Origin: Rhodohalobacter barkolensis
Lineage (GTDB): Bacteria > Bacteroidota > Rhodothermia > Balneolales > Balneolaceae
Reading direction: 5' to 3'
NCBI RefSeq assembly: GCF_002834295.1
Contig: NZ_PISP01000002.1
Coordinates: 372,001 to 436,000 of the forward strand
Length of the DNA: 64,000 nt
Both the position numbers and the translations under genes were made by a program. The notes under the pieces are model-generated. The model saw only the letters and a list, made by a program, of their open reading frames with translations. It did not search any database and was not told the origin of the DNA. Below, piece after piece: positions 15,034 to 30,507 of this stretch. The first letter of the stretch is position 1. Each line of letters begins with the position of its first letter.

Positions 15034-15428
15034 TTTTTACGCTTTTGAAGAATGATTGCTGTAATGGCCGCACCGGTCAATCCGCCAATCATAAAGCCGG
15101 GCAGATTGTTTTTCGTGCGTTCGGAAAAGGTGTATTGAATTCGTTCGATCTGTTCAGAAGCAATGGTTTTCATCACTTTTTGAACATCTACCTGGTCGAA
15201 ATAAGAGTCGATCTGTGATTTATTGGCCCGGTACTCATTTCGTAGTGCTTCATTGTCCTGGGCTAAATCGGAAAGAATGATTGTTTCGGTTATCCAGGAA
15301 CCGCGATTGCGGCTGGTAAGCTTATCCACCTGACGGGCGATAAAATCAATAAAACCACTTCCGGAATCTCCAAGAGTTTCGGAAATGATCTGTGCATCTT
15401 CGATCTCTATACTCTTTGATCCTATCAT
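15030..15428 (-). CDS. Phage membrane protein, C-terminal anchor
   Basis: This 132-residue protein has a soluble helical N-terminal part (coiled-coil-like, residues 60-105) and one C-terminal transmembrane segment FMIGGLTGAAITAIILQ ending in KRKK. It overlaps both neighbours by 4 bases, so it is translated with them. Function not recognised; it belongs to the set of single-anchor membrane proteins of this operon. Confidence 0.55.
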   Translation of the reverse strand: MIGSKSIEIEDAQIISETLGDSGSGFIDFIARQVDKLTSRNRGSWITETIILSDLAQDNEALRNEYRANKSQIDSYFDQVDVQKVMKTIASEQIERIQYTFSERTKNNLPGFMIGGLTGAAITAIILQKRKK

Positions 15429-16108
15429 CTGTTAGCTGCTTTTTTTACCACTTGACGAACCGCTCCGCTATTCAACACAAGGAAATAACCCGTTACCCCA
15501 ACGGCGGCCAGGGCCGTAACTGTAAGCAGGGTTTTTCGCACATCGGCAAAGGCCGGTTGAATCATCGTGAACAGATTCGATTGATCTTCATGCTGTATGA
15601 TTCCGGCGTTCTCCAGGGTTTTTTGATCATCCGAAAACCTCATGTGCTGCGATATGGCAATCGGTTCAAGTTTTCCGTCTTTCACATCTTGGAGTGTCGT
15701 TTGATCAGAAAACCATTCGGTTGATCCCCCTGGATATAACTCAAATTGAACATAATCATCGGTTCCTGGACGGAATACCGGATCGAACTGTATCATAGCG
15801 CTGCCTCGACAGTTCGAGAATGCATCCGTACGAATGAACCCGCCGCCTAAAATCTGATTGTTATACTTACCATGTCCGCGGACAGCTACAAAGGCATCCA
15901 AGCAGGCAAATGGTGTGCGAAACAGGGCAGGGCCGCCGGTCTTGTAGGTTTGAACTTGAACACGAACCGAAAACGGTACTCCAGATGGAGGCATACCTCG
16001 GGCCGGAATACGCTCAATAATGCGAACATCGGCGTAGTCGCTGCTAATGGCATCTGATAGTCCTGAATCCGATAAAAACGGTTGCGATATGTTTGGAAGG
16101 CTGCCCAT
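15425..16108 (-). CDS. Beta-rich protein with C-terminal membrane anchor
   Basis: This 227-residue protein has residues 30-150 rich in beta strands (VPFSVRVQVQTYKTGGPALF; DDYVQFELYPGG) and may form a compact ectodomain. The C-terminus has a transmembrane segment (LLTVTALAAVGVTGYFLVL) and a basic tail (KKAANR). No family recognised. A beta ectodomain on an anchor suits a minor capsid-to-membrane linker. Confidence 0.5.
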   Translation of the reverse strand: MGSLPNISQPFLSDSGLSDAISSDYADVRIIERIPARGMPPSGVPFSVRVQVQTYKTGGPALFRTPFACLDAFVAVRGHGKYNNQILGGGFIRTDAFSNCRGSAMIQFDPVFRPGTDDYVQFELYPGGSTEWFSDQTTLQDVKDGKLEPIAISQHMRFSDDQKTLENAGIIQHEDQSNLFTMIQPAFADVRKTLLTVTALAAVGVTGYFLVLNSGAVRQVVKKAANR

Positions 16109-16371
16109 TAAAACAAAATTCGTTTGGTTAACATGGCACCGGCCACCGCTAATATTACGGCACCGGTTAGGTTGGAATAGTCTTTCACTCTATCCGGTAA
16201 AAGGTTTTGCTTTGGCTGTGGATCGGTTTGCGATTCGTTAGATGTTGGCTGCTCCCCGCGAATCTTCTGGATTTCGTTGTAGATCTCCTCTCCCGCTTCC
16301 AGGAAGCGTTCCAATCTGCTGCCGGTCGGCTGATCAATCGGCTCAGTATGTAACACCGGTAGTTGAGACAT
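16108..16371 (-). CDS. Small phage membrane protein
   Basis: This 87-residue protein has a polar N-terminal half with helix-forming sequence (RLERFLEAGEEIYNEIQKI) and a C-terminal transmembrane segment (GAVILAVAGAMLT) ending KRILF. Its start overlaps the stop of the following 58-codon gene by one base, and its own stop overlaps the next gene. Function unknown. Confidence 0.5.
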   Translation of the reverse strand: MSQLPVLHTEPIDQPTGSRLERFLEAGEEIYNEIQKIRGEQPTSNESQTDPQPKQNLLPDRVKDYSNLTGAVILAVAGAMLTKRILF

Positions 16372-16547
16372 TAGTCCTTCTTTCGTCTTTTTGTGATCAT
16401 CATTAATGTTGCTACACCGGCAATGATCCAGGGCAGATGATCTTTGTTGATCCGGATGAAGTTTCGATCTTCCGGGCTGTCTGTTTCACGATTTAGAATT
16501 CGCTCACAAGCTGACTCGCCGAGTGGTTGAATCTTAACAGTCTGCAT
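16371..16547 (-). CDS. Very small membrane protein of 58 residues
   Basis: ATG at 16547 and TAA at 16371-16373. The start overlaps the upstream gene's TGA and the stop overlaps the downstream ATG, each by one base, so the operon is unbroken and the frame is very likely real. Residues 38-51 (LPWIIAGVATLMMIT) form one transmembrane segment, followed by KRRKKD. It fits the operon-wide pattern of C-terminal helix plus basic tail. Confidence 0.65.
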   Translation of the reverse strand: MQTVKIQPLGESACERILNRETDSPEDRNFIRINKDHLPWIIAGVATLMMITKRRKKD

Positions 16548-17119
16548 CACTTCTTCTTTTTATTGGTTAGCAGATATGCGATTGTCCCGCCTCCAACAAC
16601 CAGGGAGCCAATCAGAAATGGATTTTTGATAAATCCACCGTAACCCGCCTGAACAGTTTGTTGGCCGTTATCGGATGATTGCTGTTGTTCTGCGGCCTTG
16701 GACTCCTGCTCACGCTGGGCAATCAACTGTGGGAGCCTGTCCAGGAATTGTTGATCTCCCGGCGAAACATTCTTGTGTTTACAATCCCTGCCACCTAAGT
16801 AAAAGTGAGCCATATTGGTTGGCGTTGGCTGAACATTCGATTCCATTCCACGCACTAAATCTCTCATATCGGTTGGAGTGAGGTACGTTGAAATGGCCTC
16901 TGCGATCTGCTGCTTTTGCTGTTTTTGAGCGGAACTGCAACTGGAACCACCAAAGAGGCCACTCACAGAGTTAAAAACACTTGCCGCGGTGGTAATGATT
17001 GTTCCCGGATCTGCTCCAAGTCCATCACTCATGCCGCAATCCGGGCAGCCAAGTTCACTGTTTTGAAAACCCGATTTTCGCAGTTCTAACGTTTCGTTTT
17101 GTCCGAGGAAAGCACCCAT
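16547..17119 (-). CDS. Phage protein with Gly/Ala region and C-terminal anchor
   Basis: This 190-residue protein has an N-terminal CPDCGM and a hydrophobic stretch near residues 33-52 (GTIITTAASVFNSVSGLFGG). A Gln-rich helical middle follows, with FYLGGRDCKHK near 106-116. The C-terminal transmembrane segment (FLIGSLVVGGGTIAYLL) ends in TNKKKK. No family recognised. Confidence 0.5.
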   Translation of the reverse strand: MGAFLGQNETLELRKSGFQNSELGCPDCGMSDGLGADPGTIITTAASVFNSVSGLFGGSSCSSAQKQQKQQIAEAISTYLTPTDMRDLVRGMESNVQPTPTNMAHFYLGGRDCKHKNVSPGDQQFLDRLPQLIAQREQESKAAEQQQSSDNGQQTVQAGYGGFIKNPFLIGSLVVGGGTIAYLLTNKKKK

Positions 17120-17120
17120 A

Positions 17121-17837
17121 TCAATTGGTTTTGTTGGTTAATGTATACTGGCGATAGGCCAAATATGTGATCCCAACAACCACGCTAAGCCCGATAATGG
17201 GCTTGATGTTTTGAACTCCAGGCAATCCATCAGATAGATCAACTTTTTGCGATCCAAAAATTTGATGATCCGCAAGCTCATCCCCGGCTTTGGTATGCAA
17301 AGTTGGATCAAATCCTTTCCAGGAGTTCTTATCGTGATACTGCAAATAGACGTGTGAGTACGCCTCTTTTTTCTTCGGATTGGCTTTTACCACACGAAAC
17401 CGCACCGGAACGCCGATTGATGAAAGCAGGGCACCGGCCAGCACACTTTGATCATCACAGTCGCCGAATCCAAGCTCCAGAGTTTTTGAAGCTGTTTGCA
17501 GCCATTCGATACCGTCCGGATCATTCACATAGGCGATATTCTTTTTCATCCAAGAGTAAACCGCATCGGCAATTTTGCCATAGTTGCGGCGATTCGGCAG
17601 GCCCGTTCGCGGATCGGCCGGAATATTTTGGGTGATCTCAATCGCTTTGGACCGAACGGCCGGATCTCCTTTACCTTCATCCACCAGGCGTTTTATTTCG
17701 GAAAGCACTCCGTCCAGTCCGGGATAGGCGACACGGGTAAAAAAGGCAGAACCATCCCTGTGATGGGAGGCTCTGCCGTTGTTGCCTGGGATCGGGCTGT
17801 TGGGGACTCTTTCGGTATGGATCGTCGGTAGATTCAA
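17121..17837 (-). CDS. Transglutaminase-like (papain-fold) protease with C-terminal membrane anchor
   Basis: This 238-residue protein has a transglutaminase-like core at about 75-190. The catalytic Cys is in GFGDCDDQSVLAGALL (Cys near 129), His in YSHVYLQY (near 162), and Asp in FDPT (near 177). The C-terminal helix (IIGLSVVVGITYLAY) anchors it. Proteins of this family cut or cross-link peptides; in phages they may process capsid proteins or act on cell wall. Here it precedes the other anchored proteins, so a virion-maturation protease is a reasonable guess. Confidence 0.7.
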   Translation of the reverse strand: MNLPTIHTERVPNSPIPGNNGRASHHRDGSAFFTRVAYPGLDGVLSEIKRLVDEGKGDPAVRSKAIEITQNIPADPRTGLPNRRNYGKIADAVYSWMKKNIAYVNDPDGIEWLQTASKTLELGFGDCDDQSVLAGALLSSIGVPVRFRVVKANPKKKEAYSHVYLQYHDKNSWKGFDPTLHTKAGDELADHQIFGSQKVDLSDGLPGVQNIKPIIGLSVVVGITYLAYRQYTLTNKTN

Positions 17838-17844
17838 AGGAGAA

Positions 17845-19185
17845 TTAAGCTGCTTTTAAACGGTTTTTAAACTCTTTCAGAAGCTCAATGAAGTAGGCTT
17901 TGTGCTGTTCATTAAGCTGAACACCGTACTTGCCGATTACAAACTCCGCGGCTGCTTTTGCCGGTATATACTTCAACTGATCGGCAGCACCGTTAAACTG
18001 TTCAAGTACCGGAGCGATCACATCGGCAGCTTTTTGGGCCGGAATATCATGGTTGGTTGCTACTTCCATCAGAGTTTTTGATACCTGAATCCAGAATCCG
18101 GGTTCTGCGTTAATGTTGTGGGTTTCAAACGTGCGTAACCCTTCGTTCAAAATCCTTCGGATCGTTTCCGGACCGGGCTGGCCTTGCACCAGGGCAGATG
18201 TTACCGTTTGCACAAGCTGGCTAAAAAATTGATTGACGATATACTGCATGTTGTTTTCGGGATTGTTCTGTTCAGGCGCCGGATTGCTTTTGTTTTCCGG
18301 TTGTGTAGATTCTTTGGGACTGTTTTCAGAAGGTTTAGGCTGATTGAGTCCGGCCAACGGTTGAGGTTGCGGCTGGGCCGGTTGAAATTTTTGGATCAGC
18401 GGCGAAATAAGGTTAAACAGTTCCGGATTTTTCAGAGCATCATTCAGGATCTCTTTCAGGTCAAATCCGGTGTCCACATCGGCATACTTCAACTCTTGCT
18501 GGAGCTCAAAATTTTCAAACTTCAACTCCTGGATCTCCTCTTTGAGCTGTTCAATCTTTTCCTGAAAGGCAGATGTTTCATTGCGAACCAGGGAATTCGA
18601 TTGCCGTTCAGATTCGGTCAATTCAATGGTTAACCGGCGAACCTTATTCACCATATCATCAAGTTCACCGTCTTTGGATTTTAGCCGCTTTTCGAGCGTA
18701 TCAATGATCTGTTCAAAATCCCGGCGTGTCTCTTCCCGGATATCACGGCGGATGGATTCAATAAACTGTTGATCCAAGGATTGAGGATTGTGCTGCTCTT
18801 GTACCGAATGTATCTCAGGGCCGGAATCGTGAATGTGGAAATGAAGCTGATCTTCGGTTCCATTCTCTTTTTTTAACCGCACTTGATACTTACCGGGGCC
18901 GTACACCTGTTCAATCTGTTCAATGGTTTGAGGGTTTTGCCGTGTGATTACCTCTTTACGGCGATAGTGTCCGTGCTCCTGTTTGAGCAGCGTACCAAAG
19001 AAAGGGTAGTTCTCCAGGATTTTATCCGATGTTACAGCGATTTCCTCTATCTCTTCCGGTTCCAGGTAGGCATCCAGGGTTGGACGGCCACGACCGGGTA
19101 TATGCCGAACGTTCATTTCAGGTGAAGAACCGTTCAGGGTAGGAGACTCAATATTGTCGAATAAGTGAGTAGCTGTTTCGGCCAT
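17845..19185 (-). CDS. First gene of late operon, coiled-coil protein
   Basis: This 446-residue protein starts at 19185 with no upstream gene on this strand for over 6 kb. The N-terminal part (1-130) is globular. A long coiled coil covers about 150-245 (EEIQELKFENFELQQEL), then a Pro/Gln/Asn-rich linker (about 275-320) and a helical C-terminal domain (320-446). No membrane segment. It may be a scaffold or packaging accessory; nothing in the sequence settles this. Confidence 0.55.
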   Translation of the reverse strand: MAETATHLFDNIESPTLNGSSPEMNVRHIPGRGRPTLDAYLEPEEIEEIAVTSDKILENYPFFGTLLKQEHGHYRRKEVITRQNPQTIEQIEQVYGPGKYQVRLKKENGTEDQLHFHIHDSGPEIHSVQEQHNPQSLDQQFIESIRRDIREETRRDFEQIIDTLEKRLKSKDGELDDMVNKVRRLTIELTESERQSNSLVRNETSAFQEKIEQLKEEIQELKFENFELQQELKYADVDTGFDLKEILNDALKNPELFNLISPLIQKFQPAQPQPQPLAGLNQPKPSENSPKESTQPENKSNPAPEQNNPENNMQYIVNQFFSQLVQTVTSALVQGQPGPETIRRILNEGLRTFETHNINAEPGFWIQVSKTLMEVATNHDIPAQKAADVIAPVLEQFNGAADQLKYIPAKAAAEFVIGKYGVQLNEQHKAYFIELLKEFKNRLKAA

Positions 19186-19289
19186 TGAATTGAAAGTGAA
19201 AAAGGTTCACTCATAAATTGGCAAGGAAAAGAGGTTCAAACAACAGATAAGTGCGGTTTTGACTGTTTCGAAAGGATTAAAACTACTTT

Positions 19290-19396
19290 GGAATAAATAG
19301 GAAATTTGCGGAATAAAATGGAACAAATAGACTAAATCGGAACAGTACGGAACTATATGACTAATGCGGAACGGTTTGAATCATTTGACTAAAAAA
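19290..19396. repeat. Array of 11 units phased at about 10 bp, upstream of the late operon
   Basis: Units begin at 19290, 19300, 19310, 19320, 19330, 19339, 19349, 19359, 19368, 19378 and 19387. Most start GGAA (seven of eleven) or GACT (three), followed by an A/T-rich 5-6 nt, for example GGAATAAATA and GACTAAATC. The spacing is one helical turn, so a protein could bind along one DNA face. It lies about 105 bases upstream of the late operon start (19185, minus strand). It could be an operator array, activator site or replication origin. Confidence 0.6.
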
Positions 19397-19728
19397 AGAA
19401 AGGGGTATCTATTAATCGGTGGTAGATTTGGATTCTATTTTATGAATTTCTGTTGCTTAATGAGTGGTTTGCAAATAAGTGTTTGAGCAACTAGTAATGG
19501 GATTGATCCCCTTTCGTATAAGAAACGAAGTCATCGAGCCTTTATAAATATGACTTATGTTTTATGTACTAATTTGGACATAAACCAATTCAACAATGTT
19601 GTATAAGTTCCCTACTGAAATGCTTTGATTGCATAAAACAATAAAATCAGATATTCTACGAGAGCCGTGTTACTTGAGCCTGTTTGTTTAATTAAGTATC
19701 AGTTGGCTTAAAACCTTTCATTTACTAC
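19397..19728. other. Intergenic stretch before the first cassette-region gene
   Basis: No reading frame, RNA gene or strong hairpin is seen. A sequence GTTACTTGAGCC at 19670-19681 resembles an R' core (GTTRRRY-like) and may mark the left edge of the cassette array, but this is tentative. Confidence 0.4.
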
Positions 19729-20007
19729 ATGCATATATCTGAGCTTAACAAAATAAAAAGCGAAGCGGACCCACTACTTGGAAGTTGTACTAAAGTTGTA
19801 ATAACTAAGCTGAATGGGAAAAAGGAAATTATTCCGTGCACTTATCCAGATTATAAAGTTGTTGTTGACGTCAAGGCTTACAAATTGGAGAACCTACTTC
19901 GAGAAAAGATTTGGTTTTTTCTTAAAGCAGAATTAACAATCAAATCTACTTTTGAAATTATTGATACGCATTCTCTCAAGTTAGTTTTAGATACTAATAT
20001 GAAATGA
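19729..20007 (+). CDS. Small hypothetical cassette-region protein
   Basis: This 92-residue protein starts at MHISELNKIKSEADP. It is mostly alpha/beta, has two Cys (residues 20 and 37), and has no signal peptide or membrane segment. It lies on the plus strand, opposite to the phage genes, 79 bases ahead of the TPR gene. Low GC like the other cassette genes. No family recognised. Confidence 0.5.
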   Translation: MHISELNKIKSEADPLLGSCTKVVITKLNGKKEIIPCTYPDYKVVVDVKAYKLENLLREKIWFFLKAELTIKSTFEIIDTHSLKLVLDTNMK

Positions 20008-20086
20008 GTAGCGATTAGTAATGTTTTTTTGAGAAAAAAAAGAAGCTATAAAACAGGATTGATTAATCTTTTATTAACTATAAAAA

Positions 20087-21109
20087 ATGAGCTTATTTAA
20101 ACCAATGAATACAGATAAAATATATGAATCATCAAGAGAAGAAATTGCTTTAGAAATTAAAGGAACGGTACAGCTTGAGGCAGGAAATAATGAAAAGGCT
20201 ATTTCAATTTTCAACTCTGCTACTTCAGTATATCCCAAAAACCCTTATTTCTACTATCTTAGTGGGTACACTAAGCAAAATTTAAAGATGTATATAGATG
20301 CTATAAAAGATTTCGAATATTATTTGGAAATACATCAAAACCATTATAATGCACTTTTTCGTATCGGTCTATGCCTTCAACATTTGAATAACTTTCAAAG
20401 AGCTTTAGAATACTATAACAAATCAGTTGAATACTTTAAAGAATTCAAAACTACAATTGAGAATCTTTCTGAAGATTTACACAAAAATGAAAATATAAAT
20501 GGTAATTATTTTAACATTCCGAAGGAAAAAATTTATGGGAATAGGGCAAATGTTAAAATGAGTTTAAATGATTGGGGTGGCGCTTTAGATGATTGTGAAA
20601 ACGCAATAACTATAAATGCAGATTATCCCCAACCTTATTTTTTGCGAGGAGTCTATTTTTATAACAGTGAAGAACATGAAAAAGCAAAAAAAGACTTGAA
20701 AAAAGCTGCCAGTCTTGGATTCGAACAGGCAAATACTACATTAAAGCAACTTTATGGTAACGAAACTTCTAACGATACTTTTTTTACAGAAGTAAAACAG
20801 TTTGCTGACAGTCCAGAAGCAAAACAAAGAACAGGGGGGATTTTGATGCGAACAGGTTTTAAACCAGAGATAAATTCTGTTCTTTCTGAATTTGACAGTT
20901 TAAATATTTCAATAATGCAACAAGTTGCAGAAAGTTATTTGAAGAATATGTGGCAACAATATAAAAAGGTGGCGGGTGAAATAAATGATTTCTATAAAGC
21001 TGTCATTGCTTATGAAGTAAGTAAAGCCATAGAAGAATTGTATCCCCAAATAGACCAAGACAATTTTTGGAAAACAATATTTAATAATGCCCATAAGAGC
21101 TTTAAATAA
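20087..21109 (+). CDS. TPR-repeat protein (cassette cargo)
   Basis: This 340-residue protein has several TPR units: about 28-60 (GNNEKAISIFNSATSVYPKN), 61-94, 95-125, and 172-220 (WGGALDDCENAITINADYPQP). The C-terminal part (230-340) is helical and unlike TPR. TPRs bind other proteins, so it is likely a scaffold or regulator. It is followed by an attC-like site at 21125. It has no signal peptide and low GC. Target unknown. Confidence 0.65.
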   Translation: MSLFKPMNTDKIYESSREEIALEIKGTVQLEAGNNEKAISIFNSATSVYPKNPYFYYLSGYTKQNLKMYIDAIKDFEYYLEIHQNHYNALFRIGLCLQHLNNFQRALEYYNKSVEYFKEFKTTIENLSEDLHKNENINGNYFNIPKEKIYGNRANVKMSLNDWGGALDDCENAITINADYPQPYFLRGVYFYNSEEHEKAKKDLKKAASLGFEQANTTLKQLYGNETSNDTFFTEVKQFADSPEAKQRTGGILMRTGFKPEINSVLSEFDSLNISIMQQVAESYLKNMWQQYKKVAGEINDFYKAVIAYEVSKAIEELYPQIDQDNFWKTIFNNAHKSFK

Positions 21110-21124
21110 ACTAATGAACCTGCC

Positions 21125-21305
21125 TGCTAACAAGCACTGTAACTAAGACGCGGATAGGTCATTGGGTGTCATTGGTGTTAATCTGCGCACTATACGGATG
21201 TGATATATCATCGGGTGCAGATATCGATATTGTCGTTTCAATAATACATTTTAAACAAGTTCAGCGCTTTTTTGCATACTCGTATGAATAATGTCTAAAG
21301 CGGTC
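21125..21305 (+). other. Degenerate attC-like site 0
   Basis: The left part, GCTAACAAGC at 21126-21135, equals the R'' region of the next site (22487-22496). The stem AAGCACTGtAAC (21132-21143) pairs with GTTCAGCGCTT (21259-21269), one mismatch and one bulge. The right core is unclear. AGCGGTC at 21299-21305 is complementary to the GACCGCT of the next site's R'' (22483-22489), as expected if a cassette starts there. Longer than usual and decayed. Confidence 0.4.
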
Positions 21306-21346
21306 AATAAATTAATTCACAAATTTTTCTAAGTTTATATAAAAAC

Positions 21347-22453
21347 ATGGGACTATCTGATCACTTAAAAAAAGTGCAAAATGGGCTCCGACAAGGATCA
21401 TTTACCTCAGAGGCATCAGTTTCTCAAGGGATTCTTTTACCAGCTTTAAATGAACTTGGCTGGCCAGTCTTTGATACGTCAATAGTAGTTCCTGAATTTT
21501 CGGTAGAAAATCGTAGGGTTGATTATGCATTGTGTCATCCAAAAAATAAGCCGGCTGTATTTCTTGAAGTAAAGAATGTTGGGTTATCAGATGGTGCTGA
21601 CCGCCAATTATTTGAATATGCATTTCATCTTGGAGTTCCGATGGCAATTTTAACTGATGGTCAAGAATGGAGTTTTTACTTACCTGGTGAACAAGGGCGT
21701 TATGATGAAAGAAGAGTTTATAAAATAGATTTGCTTGAAAGAAGTCTTGATGAAATTGAAAAGCGACTTGTTCGATACTTAAAATACCAGAATGTTACAT
21801 CGGGAGAAGCATTAAAGTCAGCCCGATCTGATTACCAAAATGTCTCAAAGTTTAGAGTTATAGCAAATAATCTACCTAAAGCATGGGAATCTATACTTCA
21901 AGAACAAGATTCAATACTATTAGAGTTATTAGCTGAAAAAGTAGAAGATTTATGTGGTTATAAGCCCGATTTGGATGTTTGCAGTAGGTTTCTTGATGAA
22001 CAAATAAATTCTCATGGAACACCAAGAGTTGAAAAGAAAACTGTTCGTAACATATCAGAACGATCTACAAAAAGTAGTAAACCATCATCCAAAAAATCTC
22101 GAACTCGAAAAGTTGAAGACTACAGTTTAACATTTAAGGATCAAGATTTTTCAGCAGGTTCTGCTCGTGAAGTAATGACCACCCTATTTGAATTATTAGC
22201 AAAAGAAGATGATACTTTTCTTGAAAGATTTGCTTCGAGAAAACATGGAAGGAAAAGAAGGTATTTGGCAAAAGATAAATATGAACTTTATCCGGGACGT
22301 CCTGATTTAGCTGAAGATAATTCAGTTGAAGTAGTCTCAGGTTGGTGGCTTGGTACTAATTACAGTCGTAAAAATATTCAAGATATTATTGACTTGGCTC
22401 TTGAAGTTTCTGAACCACAGCTGAGAAGCAGAATTAAAGCAAGAGTTCATTAA
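21347..22453 (+). CDS. HSDR_N/COG4748-like predicted nuclease (cassette cargo)
   Basis: This 368-residue protein has an N-terminal domain (about 20-150) resembling the type I restriction R-subunit N-terminal nuclease fold, with RRVDYALC and AVFLEVKNVG giving the D...ExK pattern near residues 59-77. A basic, Ser-rich linker follows (230-265). The C-terminal part (270-368) ends in SGWWLGTNYSRKNIQDII. It is a whole cassette: degenerate site upstream and an attC at 22483. A defence or modification role is inferred. A remnant of a related gene lies at 30944-31408. Confidence 0.65.
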   Translation: MGLSDHLKKVQNGLRQGSFTSEASVSQGILLPALNELGWPVFDTSIVVPEFSVENRRVDYALCHPKNKPAVFLEVKNVGLSDGADRQLFEYAFHLGVPMAILTDGQEWSFYLPGEQGRYDERRVYKIDLLERSLDEIEKRLVRYLKYQNVTSGEALKSARSDYQNVSKFRVIANNLPKAWESILQEQDSILLELLAEKVEDLCGYKPDLDVCSRFLDEQINSHGTPRVEKKTVRNISERSTKSSKPSSKKSRTRKVEDYSLTFKDQDFSAGSAREVMTTLFELLAKEDDTFLERFASRKHGRKRRYLAKDKYELYPGRPDLAEDNSVEVVSGWWLGTNYSRKNIQDIIDLALEVSEPQLRSRIKARVH

Positions 22454-22482
22454 TCTTTTATCCGTAATAAAAACAATTATTT

Positions 22483-22575
22483 GACCGCTAACAAGCGTTT
22501 TCTGTGGATGTCTAAACGATTGTTGCTAATAGCTTTATTGATTGCCACGCCGCACAAACGCCAAACCGTTATAGG
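22483..22575 (+). other. attC-like site 1
   Basis: R'' is GACCGCTAAC (22483-22492). The arm GCGTTT (22495-22500) pairs with AAACGC (22556-22561), and the right core is GTTATAG (22568-22574) with the predicted crossover after G22568. The next cassette would therefore begin TTATAGGGC at 22569. The site spans about 93 bases, in the usual range for attC. Confidence 0.7.
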
Positions 22576-22607
22576 GCGAAACAAAAATTAAATATGTGAA
22601 CAGTATC

Positions 22608-23051
22608 ATGGATATAAGTTTGACGCACGTAAATTTCAAAGTTCAATGGCGGACTATTTTCATCATTGTAGGACTATTTATAGCACTCACTGCCTGTGAA
22701 TCGTCAGTCAATAGCAATGAAGATACCGAAGAAGAGATTAGTGAAGAATCACAAATTCCCTATTTGAAGGTTGTGAATCAAAATACTGATAGTTATCCAA
22801 TTACCGGTGTCCGCCTCGTTAATTATGAGTTTAATAATCTTGAAATCGATGTTGGTGACTCACAAAAATTCACTCTTGATGATGGCATGCCAGGTGGATA
22901 TAGCGACATAAACATAATAGTTAACTATAGACGAGCAGGTCGTTCATTTTCTTTGAATATAGAAAAAAATTTTAATGATGGAGATACCACAACTGTAAGA
23001 ATGAAAGGTTGCATTTCCGCTGAAGGGTGTGCTGGTGTATATTTGGAATGA
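22608..23051 (+). CDS. Cassette-encoded lipoprotein
   Basis: The ATG at 22608 is preferred (GTG at 22596 possible). The signal segment is WRTIFIIVGLFIALTAC, with a lipobox ending in Cys at about residue 30, then an acidic linker (NSNEDTEEEISEE). The mature part is a beta-rich domain of about 100 residues with two Cys near the end (MKGCISAEGCAG). Lipoproteins of unknown function are common cassette cargo. It is bounded by attC-like sites on both sides. Confidence 0.65.
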   Translation: MDISLTHVNFKVQWRTIFIIVGLFIALTACESSVNSNEDTEEEISEESQIPYLKVVNQNTDSYPITGVRLVNYEFNNLEIDVGDSQKFTLDDGMPGGYSDINIIVNYRRAGRSFSLNIEKNFNDGDTTTVRMKGCISAEGCAGVYLE

Positions 23052-23084
23052 ACTTTTGAATCAGTTCTAAACTATTCATAAATC

Positions 23085-23177
23085 GCCCTATAATAAGGCG
23101 TTTTAAGCGGACTCGTTTAGGGTTCGGGACCTAAATTTAGCAACTCGGCTCTCCGCTTTAACGCTGGGTCGCTATGT
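23085..23177 (+). other. attC-like site 2
   Basis: R'' GCCCTATAAT (23085-23094) is the exact complement of the start of its own cassette (TTATAGGGC, 22569-22577), as required because both meet in the circular cassette. The arm GCGTTTTAAGCGGA (23098-23111) pairs with TCCGCTTTAACGC (23152-23164). The right core is CGCTATG (23170-23176), with C in place of the usual second core base. This is the clearest site of the array. Confidence 0.8.
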
Positions 23178-23205
23178 ACCTAACAGATACTAACAAATTT
23201 GGATA

Positions 23206-23928
23206 ATGTATCAGATATCAAAAAGTACAACTCGGAGTTGGCGAAAGAATAATAAATTTGGGAAGTATCCCGTCTCAATCAATACTATTTGCCCAGAATG
23301 TGGTGAAAGAGGTACTTTCAGCATTGCACCTATTGCGAACTTGACTGATCAGAAGGAATCGCACCTTCAAGGTGTTTCCATGCGTGGTAAATGCCCAACA
23401 TGCGACTTTAAGGCTCGATTTATTCAAGTGGGTGAAGAAGATAAGCCAAATTATAAATTATTCATCCACCCGACTCCTAAACTTGTTCGCCAACCAATAC
23501 ATGGCGTAATTGAAAATTCCGAAATTTTTTCAGGAAGAGTGAAAAAAGCATACTTGGAAGCTATTGATGCCTATAATGCTAAGCAGTGGATTCCTGCTGC
23601 AATAATGTGTGGACGTGCGCTCGAAGGTATTACACTTTCTTTACTCCCGGAAGACAAACGAAAAGGAAAATTTGCAAAACAATTAAGTGAACTTCCAAAC
23701 CATATTGATATCAATAAAACTCTATCAGATTTAACTAATGGGATACGAAAAGGGCGCAATATTGCAGCACATTTTGATGAGTCATTAGATATTGATGAAA
23801 CTGTATCTGCAATGTTACTTGATCTACTGGATTCAATTATAGAATACCTATTTGTACTTCCTGAAAACATTGAGTCATTAGACAAGAAGCTTCAATCTGA
23901 AGATATCAAGTCAACGGATGAAAAATAA
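23206..23928 (+). CDS. Zinc-ribbon plus DUF4145 protein (cassette cargo)
   Basis: This 240-residue protein has an N-terminal zinc ribbon: CPECG near residue 29 and CPTC near 64. The C-terminal DUF4145-like domain covers about 115-215: AYLEAIDAYNAKQWIPAAIM, GRALEGITLSLL and RKGRNIAAHFDE. DUF4145 is often next to or fused with restriction and other defence proteins; the activity is unknown. It is flanked by attC-like sites 2 and 3. Confidence 0.7.
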   Translation: MYQISKSTTRSWRKNNKFGKYPVSINTICPECGERGTFSIAPIANLTDQKESHLQGVSMRGKCPTCDFKARFIQVGEEDKPNYKLFIHPTPKLVRQPIHGVIENSEIFSGRVKKAYLEAIDAYNAKQWIPAAIMCGRALEGITLSLLPEDKRKGKFAKQLSELPNHIDINKTLSDLTNGIRKGRNIAAHFDESLDIDETVSAMLLDLLDSIIEYLFVLPENIESLDKKLQSEDIKSTDEK

Positions 23929-23953
23929 AAGATGGTAAACTTGATTCACTATC

Positions 23954-24080
23954 GGTAAATGACGGGCGCTTCAAATCGGACGCAGACGGAGTTCGATGGA
24001 AACTTGATTGCTAGGAATTAATTTCACTACTTCAAAGAAATCATAATCCCTGCACCGTTTAAACGCTGGGCCGTTATAGG
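23954..24080 (+). other. attC-like site 3
   Basis: R''-like GGTAAATGAC (23954-23963) resembles the complement of its cassette start (CTATGTACC, 23172-23180). The arm GCGCTTCAAATCGGACGCAG (23966-23985) pairs with CTGCACCGTTTAAACGC (24050-24066) with bulges. The right core is GTTATAG (24073-24079). The following cassette starts TTATAGGGC, the same as the lipoprotein cassette. Length about 126 bases. Confidence 0.7.
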
Positions 24081-24149
24081 GCTGTCTCAATATCAATAGT
24101 GGATTATCCTACTTTCAGCAATTAAACCTCGCTAGCTATATCATTGATT

Positions 24150-25034
24150 ATGTTAACATATAAGGAACTTATTGAATTAAGGAAGAAGTTGGCTAATGGA
24201 GGGATTTCATTGGAACATGCTGAAGAATTATTCTGGAAGGACTTTAAAGAAGATAAACGATCGTGGCGTACAAAAGATTGGAAAGAAAGAAGAGCTAAAG
24301 TAATCAAAGACAAATGCGAAATATGCAGCAGCAAAGAAACATTGACGATACAACATCTTTCTCATCCAATAAAATACAACGAACATAAAAAAGTTGTAAC
24401 CAAAGAATATACTAGATCTTTTATTGAGTCTAATCCCACTGTTGATAAAGATGAATTTAGCTTACACATTAAAAAGAACTATGACTATATACCAGTCCCT
24501 TTATGTCCAAACTGTGAGAGCAGATATCCTAACGAAAGATCGAGAAAAACTCCTCGATATCTTTGCACAGTATGCCTAGACGAATTTGATGAAACAATAT
24601 ATAAACCGGTAGATAACCTTCTTGCAACTTTTTTTGAAAATGAAGAAGCAACTGAAGTTCGCGACAAGTGTTTTATATCAAAAGATCAATGGAGAAATAA
24701 GCATCATCTACCGACTACAAAGTATTGGTTCCAGAGAGAAAAGGCTAAAACCAGATATAACGAAGAAATTAGGAAAGAAACATTATTGCTTAGCTTAGAT
24801 GACAACATAAAATATCTTTCTCTTGAAGATACAATTACTGCATGTAAAAGGTGTGCTTACAGCTATGATATGCACAGCATGGAATTATGTCCCCAATGTA
24901 AAGAATACTACAAAGGTATACAGTACCCAAGTTGTATTCAATGCTTGCCTGAAGAGAAACGAAAAGCAGCATTTGAAAAAATTGATTTCAATAAAGAAAT
25001 GGATGAAATGCATAAGAGACTTGGAATAGACTAA
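24150..25034 (+). CDS. Multi-zinc-ribbon, HNH-like protein (cassette cargo)
   Basis: ATG at 24150 (MLTYKELIELRKKLANG). A second in-frame ATG lies two codons upstream. The N-terminal part has CEICSSKETLTIQHLSHP near 57-74 and VPLCPNCESRYP near 117, giving the paired Cys and His of an HNH/zinc-finger nuclease fold. Three more CxxC pairs follow: CTVC near 138, CKRC near 234, CPQC near 249 with CIQC near 262. It is likely a DNA- or RNA-binding or cleaving protein. About 295 residues; no signal peptide; low GC. Confidence 0.6.
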   Translation: MLTYKELIELRKKLANGGISLEHAEELFWKDFKEDKRSWRTKDWKERRAKVIKDKCEICSSKETLTIQHLSHPIKYNEHKKVVTKEYTRSFIESNPTVDKDEFSLHIKKNYDYIPVPLCPNCESRYPNERSRKTPRYLCTVCLDEFDETIYKPVDNLLATFFENEEATEVRDKCFISKDQWRNKHHLPTTKYWFQREKAKTRYNEEIRKETLLLSLDDNIKYLSLEDTITACKRCAYSYDMHSMELCPQCKEYYKGIQYPSCIQCLPEEKRKAAFEKIDFNKEMDEMHKRLGID

Positions 25035-25203
25035 ATAGATATATAAAAGAAAATCGTTAGAATCCTGCTGCTATCAAATGATAAAACCAGTGCCTGGTCT
25101 AAAGATTTATCCATTAAAAGAACTACTTTATGTAAAGCTAACAAAAACAACTAGCGTAGGCATAGGATCATACCATTAGAACGTTAAATTTATCTCTAAT
25201 CTT

Positions 25204-25307
25204 TCCATAAACTACACTTTAAAAGCGTTTCAAGCGGACTCGAATGGGATTCTGAATCCTAAATTTTAATGCCCAGAATCGCCGATTAAACGCCAGAACG
25301 TTACTCC
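25204..25307 (+). other. attC-like site 4, whose core is the stop codon of a phage gene
   Basis: The arm GCGTTTCAAGCGGA (25225-25238) pairs with CCGATTAAACGC (25282-25293). The right core is GTTACTC (25300-25306) with crossover after G25300. The bases TTA at 25301-25303 are the reverse complement of the stop codon of the HTH gene 25301-25552. The array's last cassette therefore joins phage DNA exactly there. The R'' (TCCATAAAC, 25204-25212) is degenerate. Confidence 0.7.
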
Positions 25308-25552
25308 AAAACCTTACTCTTCATCTGTGCAATAATCCAATCCACATCTGATTTTTTGACTACCAAATGGCCGGGCCGCTGGGTTCTGAAATTCCGGGCA
25401 ATGGGCTTGGGTTTTAGCAGCGGACGTACACAGTCGTAAAACATGCTCTTCTTCATTCCGGTCAGCTCCTCTACATATACCTGGGCTTCTTTCATCGTAA
25501 ACACTTCCAGTTGCACGAGTTCATCAATGGTGAGTCTGTTTCTACTTTTCAT
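25301..25552 (-). CDS. Helix-turn-helix (HTH_17/MerR-like) early phage protein
   Basis: This 83-residue protein begins MKSRNRLTIDELVQLEVFTM and continues with a helix-turn-helix region (FTMKEAQVYVEELTGMKKSM) and a C-terminal VKKSDVDWIIAQMK, the usual plan of excisionase-like HTH_17 proteins. It is preceded by the phased TCTAACC array, which it or the upstream proteins may bind. Its stop codon is the right core of attC site 4, so the last codons may have been altered by cassette insertion. Confidence 0.6.
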   Translation of the reverse strand: MKSRNRLTIDELVQLEVFTMKEAQVYVEELTGMKKSMFYDCVRPLLKPKPIARNFRTQRPGHLVVKKSDVDWIIAQMKSKVLE

Positions 25553-25677
25553 GGTCTGTGGATGGTTTTTTGTAGGTAATGATATTTAAGAAAAATTCTC
25601 AGTTGAACTAATTTTTTAAAATGACACTTTTTTGTCACGCTAAAAATGCGTGTGTTTTTTATCCTCGGTCAGTAAAA

Positions 25678-25890
25678 TCTAACCCTTCTAACCTTTTTAG
25701 TAAGTAATTGATTTTACTATTCAAATTAGGGTTAGATTTTGGGTTAGAAACTCAAAAAAAATCTAACCCTAAAAAAGGCAATCTAACCTTGATCTAACCT
25801 TGTTCTAACCCTTTTCTAACCATGTATCTAACCTTAAATAAGGCATTGATATATAGTTATTTACGGCTATAAAAAAGGGTCAGGGTTAGA
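25678..25890. repeat. Iteron-like array of TCTAACC, partly phased at 11 bp
   Basis: Eight direct copies of TCTAACC start at 25678, 25687, 25762, 25782, 25793, 25804, 25815 and 25827. Three inverted copies (GGTTAGA) lie at 25730-25736, 25742-25748 and 25884-25890. From 25782 to 25827 the spacing is 11, 11, 11 and 12 bases. A separate palindrome TGACA/TGTCA lies at 25622-25636. Position between the primase-helicase stop and the HTH gene suggests a replication origin or an operator. Confidence 0.7.
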
Positions 25891-25953
25891 AAATTTTGGG
25901 CTTTTTAGAAATTCGTTTGCACATTCAAAAATCATGGGTAAAAAAATTTAGGT

Positions 25954-28737
25954 TCAGAATGGAGCGATTTCATCCTTTATGATTGGGTTTACAGAAGTTT
26001 CTGTTTTTTCATTAGCATCGATAAATTGTTGCAAGGATGCAGTGTGATCCTGTCCGGGAGGGAAAAGGTTTATCAATTCATTGTCCGACTTACCGATTTG
26101 CCGGTATGTAAGAATGTAGCTGTGAACGGCCTTTTTAACGTCAACCGGAGCAGCATTATCGCGGGGGTAGTATCGTCCGTACCATTTCCGAGTTCCAACT
26201 TCAAAACCACCGCACTGCTTGAAATAATCTTTTAGAATCTCTTTAAACTGGTTGCTGTTGATCGCATTTTCACGCTTGTACTCTGCATACGCTTCGTACA
26301 GTTGGTTGATGTTTACATACATTTCTTCTCGACTATTGTTGTAGTTGTACTGCCAGCTCTCTTTAATCCGTCCGGATGATGCCAGGTAGATCAGTTGATT
26401 AATGAGCGCGTTTTCTTTTTCATTGGCTTTTGCAGCAGCAAAACGTTCCAGTAATTCCTCGTATATAAACGCCCGTAAATTCTCATCGGTACCAAAAATC
26501 AGCTCATAACAGCCCAACAATCGTGTATAGTTATCTGTTAAACGGTGCTCGGCTATGTAGCTTTTGGGCTCTTTTGCTACAGTCTTATCAAGGGCGGTTT
26601 TATAAGCTTGGTACAATTGTCGCACATTACTTCGGACTGTCTTTCGAAGCTCATCCGTTTGATTCAATAGAATGTGAGTCGTGATCCGGCTTAAATTGTC
26701 CAGGTTATCTTCAAACCATTCAAACAGATCTGAGTTATTGGATCGATACTCCTTTTTGTACTCGAAATAGACAACACGGCTTTCGGTCGCATCAGCCTGA
26801 TCAACATCCAGGTTGATGCGAAAGTTGGATGTAAGAGAGAGAGTACTCCGGATCGGTGTGAATTTGTTTCTCCCGGCCCGGTCAACATCTGAGACAGTGC
26901 GGCTTGTTTTGTGGTAGTAACCGTTGATGTTTTGGTAGTCAATTTTTGAAAATTCTGGATTGTACTCATCATAGCAGACCGGCAGTTGGCTAAAGTGGCC
27001 CATTTGGTTTTCAATGGCTGCAATAGTTACGGAATTCCCCTTCATCTCTTTGGTTTTATGCAACCCAAAAAAGGCTCTCAAAAAGGTATTGAAGTAGGTA
27101 GTTTTACCGGTTCCTTTAGGACCATAGACATAAAGCATGATCGTATGCCCGTTCATGTCATTGGCATAGTAGAGATCCTTTTCATAGAGGTGGTAGACTA
27201 CATAAGCTAGAATCAACTTCGCATAATTTTTGGCTCGACCGGTATTATCTCCACCTCCGATCAGATCAATCAATTTAGCCTTTACTTCTCCCATGAACTG
27301 TTCAGCTTCCATAGTGTTGGTGTTTATGATTGGTGCAAGCTGCTCCTTCTCTTTCATAGATTGATAGAGAGGCAGAGTAAAACCAACTCGGTTATTGACG
27401 ATGAACTCATCGGATTCATTTGGCTCAATAATTTTGGCCGGTTGATCTTTATAGGGAGGGCAGATCAGCGCGTTACCAAACAGCCAGTAAGGACGGTTGT
27501 CATTGTCAGTAGGCTGGATGAATCCAACGTGATCCGGACGGCGGACAATTGGTTTGTCAAATCCAGAAAGCAACCATTTAAAAATGGAAAGAGGCTTCAC
27601 TTTATCGTTACGTGCCTGGATAATCTCCCCCATGGTATAAGGCCGGATCGCTTTATAAAAACTGCGTACATCATCCAGGCTTTCCGGAAGAACTTCAATG
27701 GTGTCTGTTTTGATCAACTTTCCACGATTCAACTCCCGAATATTGATATAGAAGATCCGTCCTTCCCGATCATCCTTTACAATTGAGTTTATATCAATGG
27801 CGAAATCAGCAACCAATCTTTGATCTTCACCGGTTGAATAGATGCTGTGGTTCTCCTCAAAAAAATGATTGTTGAGTTGCCTTACAGAAGGGCCTTCATC
27901 ATTGTTATTCTCGACACCAACAATGGCCACTGCTTCATTCCTTGTGCTAACTACATCCGTATTGAATGCAAGCTCCAGGAGTTCATCTTTGGTCCCACCT
28001 TCCATGAGCCAGTCTGATACATCCTCTTTCTCTTTAAGTCCCGGTAGTTGAAGTATCCGTATGGACTTGGCAATTCCACCAATTTTCTCTGTAATCAATA
28101 CCGCATGTTCACGGCCCGGATCATCATTGTCTGGAAGAATGATTACATCTGCATTTTTAAAAAATTCGTTATAGGAGTCTTGCCACTTACCGGCTCCCAT
28201 GGGGGTAGTCGTAGCAACAAGTCCGCGTTTTTCGAGTGCATCCGCATCTTTTTCCCCTTCAACCAGGAAAACAGGCCGGTTTTCTTCAATAGCTCTGATT
28301 ACATCCGGAAGATTGTAGATGACTCTTCTGACACCTTTCAGGCTCCACGTATATTCACCGTTTGGCTGCTTAACTCTTTGGCGAAAACTTTTTGGATGGA
28401 ATCTAACGGCTTCAAATAGTAGCTCTCCGTTTTCATCGGTATATGGATAGGTGGCGACAATTCTTTTTTTCTGCGGTTTCGTCTGTCTATTTCGGTATTC
28501 CGGATAGAGAATTTCAAAGTTGAAGCCCAGGGATTTTAAAATCTCACTGCCTTCACAACCGGCATGGCAAGTAACCGAAATTTTTCCATCCGGTTGCTTT
28601 TTCCAGGTAACAGAAGGTGTTCTATCGTCATGAAAAGGGCAGGGGCATTGCGTCTGAATGTAGTCTCCACGGTGTTCAACTTTTAAACCTCTAGACTCAA
28701 TTTCATCGAGTATTTGTTGGAGTCTTGTAGAAATCAT
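25954..28737 (-). CDS. Phage primase-helicase (zinc finger, TOPRIM, SF3-type ATPase)
   Basis: This 927-residue protein starts with a CHC2-type zinc finger (CPCPFHDDRTPSVTW, then CHAGCEG, residues 30-62). A TOPRIM core covers about 150-225: PVFLVEGEKDADAL holds the Glu and VIILPDNDDPGREHA the Asp pair. The C-terminal helicase has P-loop GPKGTGKTT near 540-547 and LPVCYDEYNPEF as Walker B-like. It should prime and unwind element DNA, like D5/P4-type replication proteins. The fusion and length are typical. It follows four small early genes, and its product may act at the iteron array immediately downstream. Confidence 0.85.
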   Translation of the reverse strand: MISTRLQQILDEIESRGLKVEHRGDYIQTQCPCPFHDDRTPSVTWKKQPDGKISVTCHAGCEGSEILKSLGFNFEILYPEYRNRQTKPQKKRIVATYPYTDENGELLFEAVRFHPKSFRQRVKQPNGEYTWSLKGVRRVIYNLPDVIRAIEENRPVFLVEGEKDADALEKRGLVATTTPMGAGKWQDSYNEFFKNADVIILPDNDDPGREHAVLITEKIGGIAKSIRILQLPGLKEKEDVSDWLMEGGTKDELLELAFNTDVVSTRNEAVAIVGVENNNDEGPSVRQLNNHFFEENHSIYSTGEDQRLVADFAIDINSIVKDDREGRIFYINIRELNRGKLIKTDTIEVLPESLDDVRSFYKAIRPYTMGEIIQARNDKVKPLSIFKWLLSGFDKPIVRRPDHVGFIQPTDNDNRPYWLFGNALICPPYKDQPAKIIEPNESDEFIVNNRVGFTLPLYQSMKEKEQLAPIINTNTMEAEQFMGEVKAKLIDLIGGGDNTGRAKNYAKLILAYVVYHLYEKDLYYANDMNGHTIMLYVYGPKGTGKTTYFNTFLRAFFGLHKTKEMKGNSVTIAAIENQMGHFSQLPVCYDEYNPEFSKIDYQNINGYYHKTSRTVSDVDRAGRNKFTPIRSTLSLTSNFRINLDVDQADATESRVVYFEYKKEYRSNNSDLFEWFEDNLDNLSRITTHILLNQTDELRKTVRSNVRQLYQAYKTALDKTVAKEPKSYIAEHRLTDNYTRLLGCYELIFGTDENLRAFIYEELLERFAAAKANEKENALINQLIYLASSGRIKESWQYNYNNSREEMYVNINQLYEAYAEYKRENAINSNQFKEILKDYFKQCGGFEVGTRKWYGRYYPRDNAAPVDVKKAVHSYILTYRQIGKSDNELINLFPPGQDHTASLQQFIDANEKTETSVNPIIKDEIAPF

Positions 28738-28780
28738 GATTTATGGTCGTCCCAGGCTGAATGTTTAGTGCGATTATTGG

Positions 28781-29089
28781 TTAGGAGGGCCTAAAGATGT
28801 TATCGTATGGCCTGATAAACTTCTCTTCCATTTCAGCGACTTTTTCAGCGTACTCATTAAAACTGGAAAAGGCTTCCTTCTGATCGGTGCAGATCATTTG
28901 CTGGAAATTGAGCTTATAGTTGTTGATCTGCCTTAGAGATGGGTAGATGCTTCCTTCACAAGCAGCCAACAACTTGCCAATCATTTTATACTCTCGATGA
29001 GTGAAGGATTCTTTGGTAAGTATTTTATTTCGCAGCTCATGCCATGCCATCATCTTGCGAATGGCAATGTTTGAATCGGTCATATTCAT
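28781..29089 (-). CDS. Hypothetical early phage protein
   Basis: This 102-residue helical protein has an N-terminal MNMTDSNIAIRKMMAWHELR and a central AACEGSIYPSLRQINNYKLN, a pattern seen in some replication accessory proteins. No membrane segment or catalytic motif. It lies between a small helical gene and the primase-helicase gene on the same strand. Function unknown. Confidence 0.55.
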   Translation of the reverse strand: MNMTDSNIAIRKMMAWHELRNKILTKESFTHREYKMIGKLLAACEGSIYPSLRQINNYKLNFQQMICTDQKEAFSSFNEYAEKVAEMEEKFIRPYDNIFRPS

Positions 29090-29111
29090 GGTAAAAATCG
29101 ATTGTGTTACT

Positions 29112-29417
29112 TTAGGTTGTTTCAGTTCGGTTATCCGTGACTCTTGTAGGTTTTAACTTTTCCGATAATACGGAGTGTTTTCGGCTCTGCTCGGCAAACG
29201 TCATCACTTCCTTAACAGTTAGCTGAGTCGATTCAGGAATTGAGAAGTCAACGGGTAGAAGCCGCGCGATGTCCCAGGCAATTAACTCCGCTAAGTCTTG
29301 ATTGATGTGGATTGACCCGGAGTACTTTCTCATACTTTGAACAATATGGGTAAGCAGAGTGAGATAGTTACTGCCGGTATTGTCTGCTTGTCGTTGATAT
29401 CGATTTACTTTGTCCAT
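29112..29417 (-). CDS. Hypothetical early phage protein
   Basis: This 101-residue protein begins MDKVNRYQRQADNTGSNYLT and is mostly helical. Its start overlaps the end of the preceding HTH gene by 13 bases, indicating a shared transcript. No family recognised. Confidence 0.55.
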   Translation of the reverse strand: MDKVNRYQRQADNTGSNYLTLLTHIVQSMRKYSGSIHINQDLAELIAWDIARLLPVDFSIPESTQLTVKEVMTFAEQSRKHSVLSEKLKPTRVTDNRTETT

Positions 29418-29659: not shown

Positions 29660-29663
29660 GAGC

Positions 29664-29921: not shown

Positions 29922-29943
29922 TTTTTTTTAGTAATTACAGATT

Positions 29944-29994
29944 ACTTACAGTTTGTAAGTGAGCTAATTGGATGATAATTAGTAATTACTAATT
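29944..29994. promoter_or_regulatory. Palindromic operators between early operon and repressor
   Basis: Two perfect palindromes lie between the divergent genes. One is ACTTACA-gtt-TGTAAGT (29944-29960). The other is AATTAGTAA/TTACTAATT (29977-29994). Such sites are typical of repressor/Cro control of lysogeny. A further near-identical ACTTACA-N3-TGTAAG is found at 30508-30523. Confidence 0.65.
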
Positions 29995-30012
29995 AAATCA
30001 ACATAAATTTTG

Positions 30013-30408: not shown

Positions 30409-30507
30409 CCTCCATATCTGTATAGTTTTCTTCAATTAACATACCCCTGAATGTTTATTTGAATGATTGATCTCGTGGAATATAAGTAAATCATATTAAT
30501 TGTTTTT

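Follow-up and report, generated by a model that had tools for sequence, protein, structure and literature searches.

A predicted integron-type cassette array in an SSIP-1-like prophage of Rhodohalobacter barkolensis

The window analyzed here is a stretch of 64,000 nucleotides of Rhodohalobacter barkolensis, family Balneolaceae (assembly GCF_002834295.1, contig NZ_PISP01000002.1, positions 372,001 to 436,000; G000:C2:372001-436000 below, G denoting genomes and C contigs). It contains a block of plus-strand genes separated by sites of the attC type and bounded on both sides by minus-strand phage genes. Such a block, a cluster of attC sites lacking integron integrases (CALIN), comprises the following features; R1 and R2 are the attC models described below, and a slash marks a crossover point or cassette start.

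19729..20007, plus strand: open reading frame (ORF) of 92 aa, in or left of the first cassette, without a family match
20087..21109, plus strand: cassette 1 ORF, TPR protein, 340 aa
21125..21299, plus strand: site A, inferred decayed attC, without R1 score; boundary of homology with a G043 cassette at 21299
21347..22453, plus strand: cassette 2 ORF, 368 aa, HsdR-N nuclease-like (PF04313, E 6.8e-8)
22484..22574, plus strand: attC site B, R1 41.8 bits, E 3.2e-9; R2 60.5 bits; AAC and GTT core triplets intact
22596..23051, plus strand: cassette 3 ORF, 151 aa, lipoprotein-like by eye, no family over cut-off
23087..23177, plus strand: attC site C, R1 60.8 bits, E 1.2e-14; R' core GCTATGT
23206..23928, plus strand: cassette 4 ORF, 240 aa, DUF4145, zinc-ribbon-like start
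23955..24079, plus strand: attC site D, R1 31.5 bits, E 2.9e-6
24144..25034, plus strand: cassette 5 ORF, 296 aa, zinc-ribbon-like (below the Pfam cut-off), TTG start
25214..25306, plus strand: attC site E, final site of the array, R1 59.2 bits, E 3.5e-14; R'' degenerate
25300..25303, plus strand: right junction G/TTA, the TTA being the complement of the TAA stop of the convergent gene 25301-25552 (offset 0)

Simple pattern scanners missed some or all of these sites because their cores are altered, and covariance models were used instead. A family attC pattern derived from sites near intI in Balneolaceae-type contigs was scanned over 92 genomes of the window's family; it matched in 32 of them, and the same pattern reversed matched in none. 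R1 was built from 32 aligned attC sites, 30 found by the pattern and two located beside intI (L016, L023), with no site from the window or its genome; R2 is a further attC model used alongside. The outer hairpin arm covaries in the R1 training alignment, with two-sided changes in 36 cells, and the inner arm is invariant because the search pattern fixed it. On 80 intI loci, R1 gave 23 matches (E<=0.01; two are training sites) in 11 loci, all on the strand opposite intI.

Applied to both strands of the window at E<=10, R1 gave exactly four matches, all on the plus strand, with E from 1e-14 to 3e-6 and gaps of 512, 777, and 1134 bp. Sites B to E match R1 and R2 over all 92 positions in the layout R''-L''-loop-L'-R' with an extra L'' base. 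The expected crossover triplet is GTT, with the exception of site C, which reads GCT. Short attC sites of class 1 type, presumably those of aadA, score 27.3 bits with R1, below each of the four window sites. By model, sites B to E are thus attC sites. Searches for Rfam families and tRNA genes found nothing in the window. The initial annotation had also pointed to positions 1-3400, where R1 finds no match. Three related repeats of about 130 bp (2026-2160, 2229-2360, 3269-3400) surround a gene without a family match there; each begins with a GC-rich hairpin of the CCGGT..ACCGG type and ends with a CCTTACAGAA-like motif. They are not attC sites, because R1 does not match them.

The first bases of a cassette should pair with the R'' that closes it. 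In cassette 3, the start GTTATAGGGCG at 22568 complements R'' of site C at 10 of 11 positions, a better match than anywhere else within 6 kb. Cassette 2 pairs in 8 of 11 positions where expected (21296), a score equalled at another place, and its copy in G043 in 11 of 11. Cassettes 4 and 5 reach about 7/10 and 6/10 by eye, at places that are not the best-matching ones, and no start matching site A was found for cassette 1.

Other genomes provide an independent view of the same boundaries. Cassette 2 is shared with contig C7 of G043 (window 21299-22577, 91% DNA identity) and cassette 4 with contig C22 of G029, a genome of another genus (window 23170-23963, 92%). Both ends of each homology block coincide with predicted crossover or core positions, and the DNA of site D is 86% identical to a stretch under an attC of G043. 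At the left end of cassette 2, G043 has an intact start, CCG/TTAGCGGTCA, in which TTAGCGGTCA complements R'' of site B (TGACCGCTAAC) without a mismatch (11 of 11 positions); the corresponding window sequence is AATG/TCTAAAGCGGTCA. Because this intact start lies at the homology boundary, 21299, a decayed attC probably spans about 21125-21299 at site A. R1 gives site A no score even with filters off (nearest match 6.1 bits, E 6.7), and an R''-like GCTAACAAGC is retained at 21126. Thus, the five attC-type sites of the initial annotation are borne out by R1 at 22483, 23085, 23954, and 25204, and at 21125 only as a remnant supported by G043; the array is partly decayed. Its proposed extent holds at the right end, on a stop codon at 25300..25303; a left end at 19674 could not be located, in keeping with the missing start for site A.

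The cassette 2 protein is 93% identical in G043:C7, with nonsynonymous and synonymous divergences (dN, dS) of 0.032 and 0.226, and the cassette 4 protein is 97% identical in G029:C22 (dN 0.019, dS 0.306); both genes look to be under purifying selection. Judged from end complementarity and homology, two or three of the window units appear to behave as cassettes.

These observations also bear on the possibility that the genes are plain prophage cargo and the arms belong to ordinary terminators or to palindromes that arose by chance. Folding energies are unremarkable at three of the four sites, as terminators or chance would allow: against shuffled sequences, the bottom strands give z of 0.60 for A, 0.08 for B, -2.47 for C, -1.36 for D, and -1.04 for E, with -4.87 for the class 1 control and with the L016 control given on the cassette-sense strand. 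The explanation is nonetheless extremely improbable, given that an independent attC model finds only these four places in 64 kb, that the end of cassette 3 is complementary to its start, that the homology blocks have the size of cassettes, and that the reversed pattern yields nothing in 92 genomes. For the four sites we consider it refuted by the R1 scores (E<=3e-6), and the outcome that the initial annotation had named as fatal to its proposal, no attC score or arms explained by terminators, did not occur. A defence island without cassettes was considered as well and dropped.

The genes of the array are of unrelated function, as had been noted at first: a TPR protein, an HsdR-N-like protein, a small protein, a DUF4145 protein, and a zinc-ribbon-like protein. 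None of them clearly matches a PADLOC family (best 13.9 bits). In relatives of the prophage, a TIR-TPR gene and a PD-DExK-like nuclease gene adjoin the attC sites of G013:C2, with a type IIG enzyme further on, and a NERD nuclease and the candidate defence protein PDC-S31 are encoded beside those of G043; the G044 cassette gene has no family match. Because of these genes adjoining attC sites, part of the cargo in relatives likely has a defence role; this prediction does not extend to the cargo of the window.

The element that carries the array has the following features.

Window 1..30774, with the left end outside at C2:367392 (about window -4608): SSIP-1-like prophage, 35.4 kb in total
L013:15693-16868: phage-type integrase, inside the left end of the prophage
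5357..5926, minus strand: lytic transglycosylase, SSIP-1 ORF54 homologue (Pfam SLT E 9.7e-10; ORF54 E 1.3e-19)
8391..9161, minus strand: putative major capsid protein, SSIP-1 gp47 homologue (tblastn E 1e-11)
9226..9861, minus strand: homologue of SSIP-1 structural proteins gp45/gp46 (phmmer E 4.9e-16 and 4.4e-8)
10666..15033, minus strand: 1455-aa protein with ATPase, ArdC, metallopeptidase, and ddrB-ParB regions (PHROG, Pfam)
17121..17837, minus strand: transglutaminase-like protein, homologue of SSIP-1 structural gp34 (Pfam; phmmer E 7e-26)
17845..19185, minus strand: SSIP-1 ORF33 homologue (phmmer E 1.1e-10), first late gene left of the array
25301..25552, minus strand: 83-aa prophage gene, with relatives in G044 (76%), G025 (55%), and G013 (39%)
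25954..28737, minus strand: DNA primase-like protein (PHROG primase E 1e-34), 61-76% identical in G018 and G044
30728..30774, plus strand: right attachment repeat, 3' part of tRNA-Arg, 47 bp identical to the left end

The left 47-bp repeat lies at L013:15392, within tRNA-Arg 15362-15436, and its identical right copy at window 30728; direct repeats together with an integrase gene of its own mark the element as a prophage. The same layout is seen in G013:C4 and G018:C5, with end repeats of 47 and 45 bp from tRNA-Pro, and in G043:C7, with a 68-bp tRNA-Met repeat in copies about 46 kb apart; no end repeat was found in the examined stretches of G013:C2.

Salisaeta icosahedral phage 1 (SSIP-1) gives 11 links to nine window proteins. 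Eight late proteins are collinear with SSIP-1, and the primase-like protein matches ORF38, outside the shared gene order. On the SSIP-1 side, seven of the proteins matched are recorded as structural (gp34, gp40, gp43, gp45, gp46, gp47, and gp48; JN880423), gp40 and gp43 being matched by the 1455-aa protein in phmmer. That protein matches 96 phage records, but the matches do not place the prophage because the best ten run through the ArdC of Caulobacter phages. Among 50,697 phage records, only SSIP-1 gp47 (two records of one phage) matches the 8391-9161 protein at E<=0.01. None of 20 proteins from the prophage and its surroundings was assigned to a capsid, portal, or terminase by PHROGs. In viral contigs, the primase query found no relative, and the gp34-like query found five weak relatives, for which the best R1 match has E 0.78. 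As the late proteins are collinear and gp47 is matched, the prophage is SSIP-1-like by the synteny of its virion genes, and it may form tailless, membrane-containing virions. The suggestion of the initial annotation that a CALIN-type array lies inside a prophage is therefore upheld by the four R1 sites together with the tRNA-Arg repeats, the integrase, and this synteny.

The predicted structure of the 8391-9161 protein is a double jelly-roll (250 residues modelled, pLDDT 85.3). The model matches the major capsid protein of Sulfolobus turreted icosahedral virus (STIV; Z 10.6), PM2 P2 (Z 9.2), and PRD1 P3 (Z 8.2), and also the enzyme peptidylglycine monooxygenase (PHM), whose Z of 11.5 is as high as the capsid matches. 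Among viral structures, the model is most similar to I1ZBI0, an unnamed viral protein (TM 0.86). The fold of the gp45/46 homologue has no structure match at E<=0.001. In passages of two reviews, SSIP-1 is listed as 'single jelly roll?' (PMC6260650) and said to have two capsid protein types (PMC6356626); this listing differs from the double jelly-roll predicted here for a gp47 relative. Between the 83-aa gene and the primase gene lies a run of TCTAACC-type repeats (25680-25840). By eye, similar runs occupy the same place in G044 (L166 ~1430-1600) and G018 (ACGTTAG type, L162 ~16180-16400), and they look like replication-origin iterons.

The gp34-like transglutaminase protein served as a marker for related prophages. 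Of 128 genomes of the order, 20 encode relatives of it, at 25 loci in total, and the stretches around all 25 were read; some hold partial prophages, and that of G017 is only 4.3 kb long. R2 detects attC sites with E<=1e-3 at six loci: the window, G044, G018:C5, G013:C2, G020:C3, and G043:C7. A marginal seventh is G018:C1 (E 0.022), and no attC was found in the stretches read at the remaining 18 loci, including 11 stretches scanned with R2. Five loci have the array at the spot occupied in the window, with attC sites on the strand opposite the late genes. The G043 array, which was reached through its cassette gene, lies at the integrase end, an end covered at only a minority of the other loci; its attC sites share the strand of the late genes, and the integrase gene is convergent to them. 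A density estimate gives 3.1 attC sites expected in 24 prophages versus 14 (>=27 bits) seen, or 15 with E<=1e-3, a post hoc comparison that takes a prophage length of 37 kb and thresholds that are not identical. Assuming two sites per array on average, the chance of at least six arrays is about 0.005.

One cassette is common to the window and G043. The six proteins of the window's cassette region have no tblastn match (E 1e-4) in the prophage stretches of G044, G018, G013, and G020. On this sequence evidence, related prophages carry predicted attC arrays, mostly with other cassettes. The initial annotation had regarded a location inside a phage-like element as unusual for this lineage. That view is not sustained: attC sites at no fewer than five other loci of the same prophage family mean that the location is not a one-off, and phage CALINs have been published (PMC9892861). 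G018:C5 has in addition a second pair of attC sites beyond the primase gene (L162:5945-6080 and 6846-7082; R2 24.3 and 25.5 bits, E 0.0013 and 5.6e-4). In G013:C4, short attC-like palindromes seen by eye (L164 ~12487-12560 and 13060-13116) flank a relative of the 83-aa gene; they have no model score and were left out of the counts.

At the right end of the window array, the crossover coincides exactly with the TAA stop of a convergent gene of the prophage. The same is observed at three of eight prophage junctions (window, G044, and G043), some of the eight not being the final site of their array, and at none of seven chromosomal junctions of the own genome. The gene concerned is the 83-aa gene in the window and in G044 and the integrase gene in G043 (G/TTA); because the first two share the gene, these are two independent places and not three. 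In the array-free G025, the 83-aa gene (55% identical) is 111 bp from the next gene on the same strand. Cassettes are reportedly also inserted into genomes outside integrons, at attG sites (Loot et al., Nat Microbiol 2024). The right junctions of the window, G044, and G043 fit the G/TT that an attG-type insertion into non-integron DNA requires; on the left, a GTTATTT cassette start was read in G044, by eye only. The difference from attG sites is that a convergent phage gene contributes its stop codon to the junction here, at two different spots.

An alternative scenario is that a prophage acquired a piece of a chromosomal integron by homologous or illegitimate recombination, without integrase action, and that this piece is the source of the later copies. 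Qi et al. consider routes of this kind for CALINs in phages (PMC9892861), and the insertion point shared by the window and G044 and the cassette shared with G043 would both follow from common descent. We consider it unlikely. The shared cassette is in a prophage in G043 as well, at a different spot, where the array again ends on a stop codon with G/TTA. The homologous blocks are delimited by cassette ends, the pattern expected of site-specific exchange, and the six cassette-region proteins are unmatched in the prophage stretches of the four other relatives with arrays.

The initial annotation had described the array as lacking an integron integrase. This is correct for the prophage, whose own integrase region scores at most 14.5 bits against the intI model TIGR02249 (cut-off 265), so that a complete integron at the array was dropped as a candidate. 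It does not hold for the genome as a whole: the suggested search for intI yielded one gene over the cut-off, on contig C6, in a complete integron.

C6:270659-283094: complete integron of this genome, intI and attC array

Its intI (C6:270659-271600) scores 406 bits; on the other strand, attC sites extend from C6:272042 to 283094. The closest named match of this IntI is in a Balneolaceae contig (84%). With 150 of 769 candidates scored by R1, the genome has at least 16 attC sites with E<1e-3, four of them in the window; further small clusters are present on C1, C2, C3, and C7. In the family, 50 of 92 genomes have intI over the cut-off, and R2 matches attC sites in 73 of 92. Contig L016 (JADEXJ010000215.1), labelled as a Pleurocapsales cyanobacterium, encodes an IntI 67% identical to that of C6 and has attC sites of Balneolaceae type; its content is possibly contamination.

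An array without intI could also be the remnant of a complete integron once borne by the phage, the prophage having lost its own integrase gene. CALINs have been proposed to be degraded integrons in IntegronFinder 2.0 (PMC9024848). In G000, G013, G018, G020, and G043, however, the intI matches over the cut-off are on contigs other than the prophages with attC sites (G044 is too fragmented), the SSIP-1 record names no intI, coding sequence of the prophage borders the array on the right, and at least two insertion points have been used. Such a loss is accordingly very doubtful, more so than uptake of an integron piece.

The most probable interpretation, to which we assign a probability of about 0.72, is that the window contains a CALIN of four attC sites and one decayed site, with about five cassettes, in a 35-kb SSIP-1-like prophage, and that it was loaded by the integron integrase of a host. 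The integrase, made by the present or an earlier host and acting in trans, would have inserted a first cassette into a GTTA of the prophage by recombination between attC and an attG-type site. Since this GTTA includes the complement of the TAA stop, no gene would have been broken. Later cassettes would have been added by the same enzyme, the phage may then have carried them to new hosts, and the cargo, partly of defence type in relatives, could serve the prophage or its host. An intI gene is found in all 19 family genomes with such a prophage and in 31 of the 73 others (Fisher p 2e-6), and the association persists when completeness of 90% or more and contamination of 5% or less are required (p 6e-4).

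Several observations weigh against this interpretation. By genus, the association of prophage and intI is weak (p = 0.10) and confounded by kinship, so that the co-occurrence is suggestive only. AAC and GTT are both kept in site B alone, the R'' cores of C, D, and E being altered; the folding energies of A, B, D, and E do not clearly stand out from those of shuffled sequences, and recombination of the window sites by IntI is putative. The pairing of start and end is clearest for cassette 3 alone, the best places for D and E being unexpected ones and A giving none, and the left boundary of the array was not located. In the stretches read, 19 of the 25 prophage loci show no attC at E<=1e-3 (one of them marginal, E 0.022). 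Finally, the window and G044 have one insertion point and may represent one old event.

How cassettes move between the chromosomal integrons of different species is an open question, and a temperate phage family with attC arrays in hosts that have intI offers a concrete and testable route. Junctions on stop codons suggest that cassettes can enter compact phage genomes without gene breakage. A general form of the scenario, in which temperate phages of SSIP-1 type regularly load cassettes through host integron integrases at stop-codon GTTA of their own genomes and shuttle these cassettes, some of them with defence genes, between bacteria that each have a chromosomal integron, is possible, and we advance it only tentatively. 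These prophages also provide SSIP-1, a phage type about which little is known, with integrated relatives across many genomes of a single family. To the right of the prophage, two PHROG 18266 genes (33834-34370 and 37617-38201) flank a large serine/threonine kinase gene with TPR (34580-37489).

Among open papers, none was found that combines Balneolaceae and integrons. Judged by titles and the starts of abstracts, the open-paper matches listed include no integron or CALIN report for Balneolota, Rhodothermota, or Gracilimonas, and none on an SSIP-1 provirus or prophage; a complete integron is reported for Salinibacter ruber (PMC9024848). The window array resembles the CALINs described there in having at least two attC sites in a row with genes between them and no intI in the element. 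It differs from that description, so far as available, in lying in a prophage and in recurring in relatives of the prophage, mostly with other cassettes.

The closest precedent is the study of Qi et al. (2023), cited here from the portion at hand (PMC9892861), which reports 17 CALINs in 10,705 phage genomes, virulent as well as temperate; as in the window, these are attC arrays in phage genomes without intI. Five of six tested phage attC sites recombined with attI1 via IntI1. The phages named are from Vibrio, E. coli (P1), Shewanella, Tetrasphaera, Polaribacter, and Pseudoalteromonas, with one of unknown host, and that portion mentions no SSIP-1-like phage, recurrent spot, or stop-codon junction. 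SSIP-1 itself, a membrane-containing phage of about 44 kb according to reviews (PMC6356626 and PMC6260650), has a circular 43.8-kb genome (JN880423) in which the eight late-protein homologues follow the same order and R2 finds no attC match; the window element differs in being integrated at a tRNA gene and in carrying an array. The antiviral hotspots of P2-like phages and P4-like satellites, as outlined in PMC9122126, similarly hold variable cargo between conserved phage genes, the difference being that the cargo here is partly bounded by attC sites. Phage CALINs are already known; the SSIP-1-type carrier, the recurrence in related prophages, and the stop-codon junction appear to be new.

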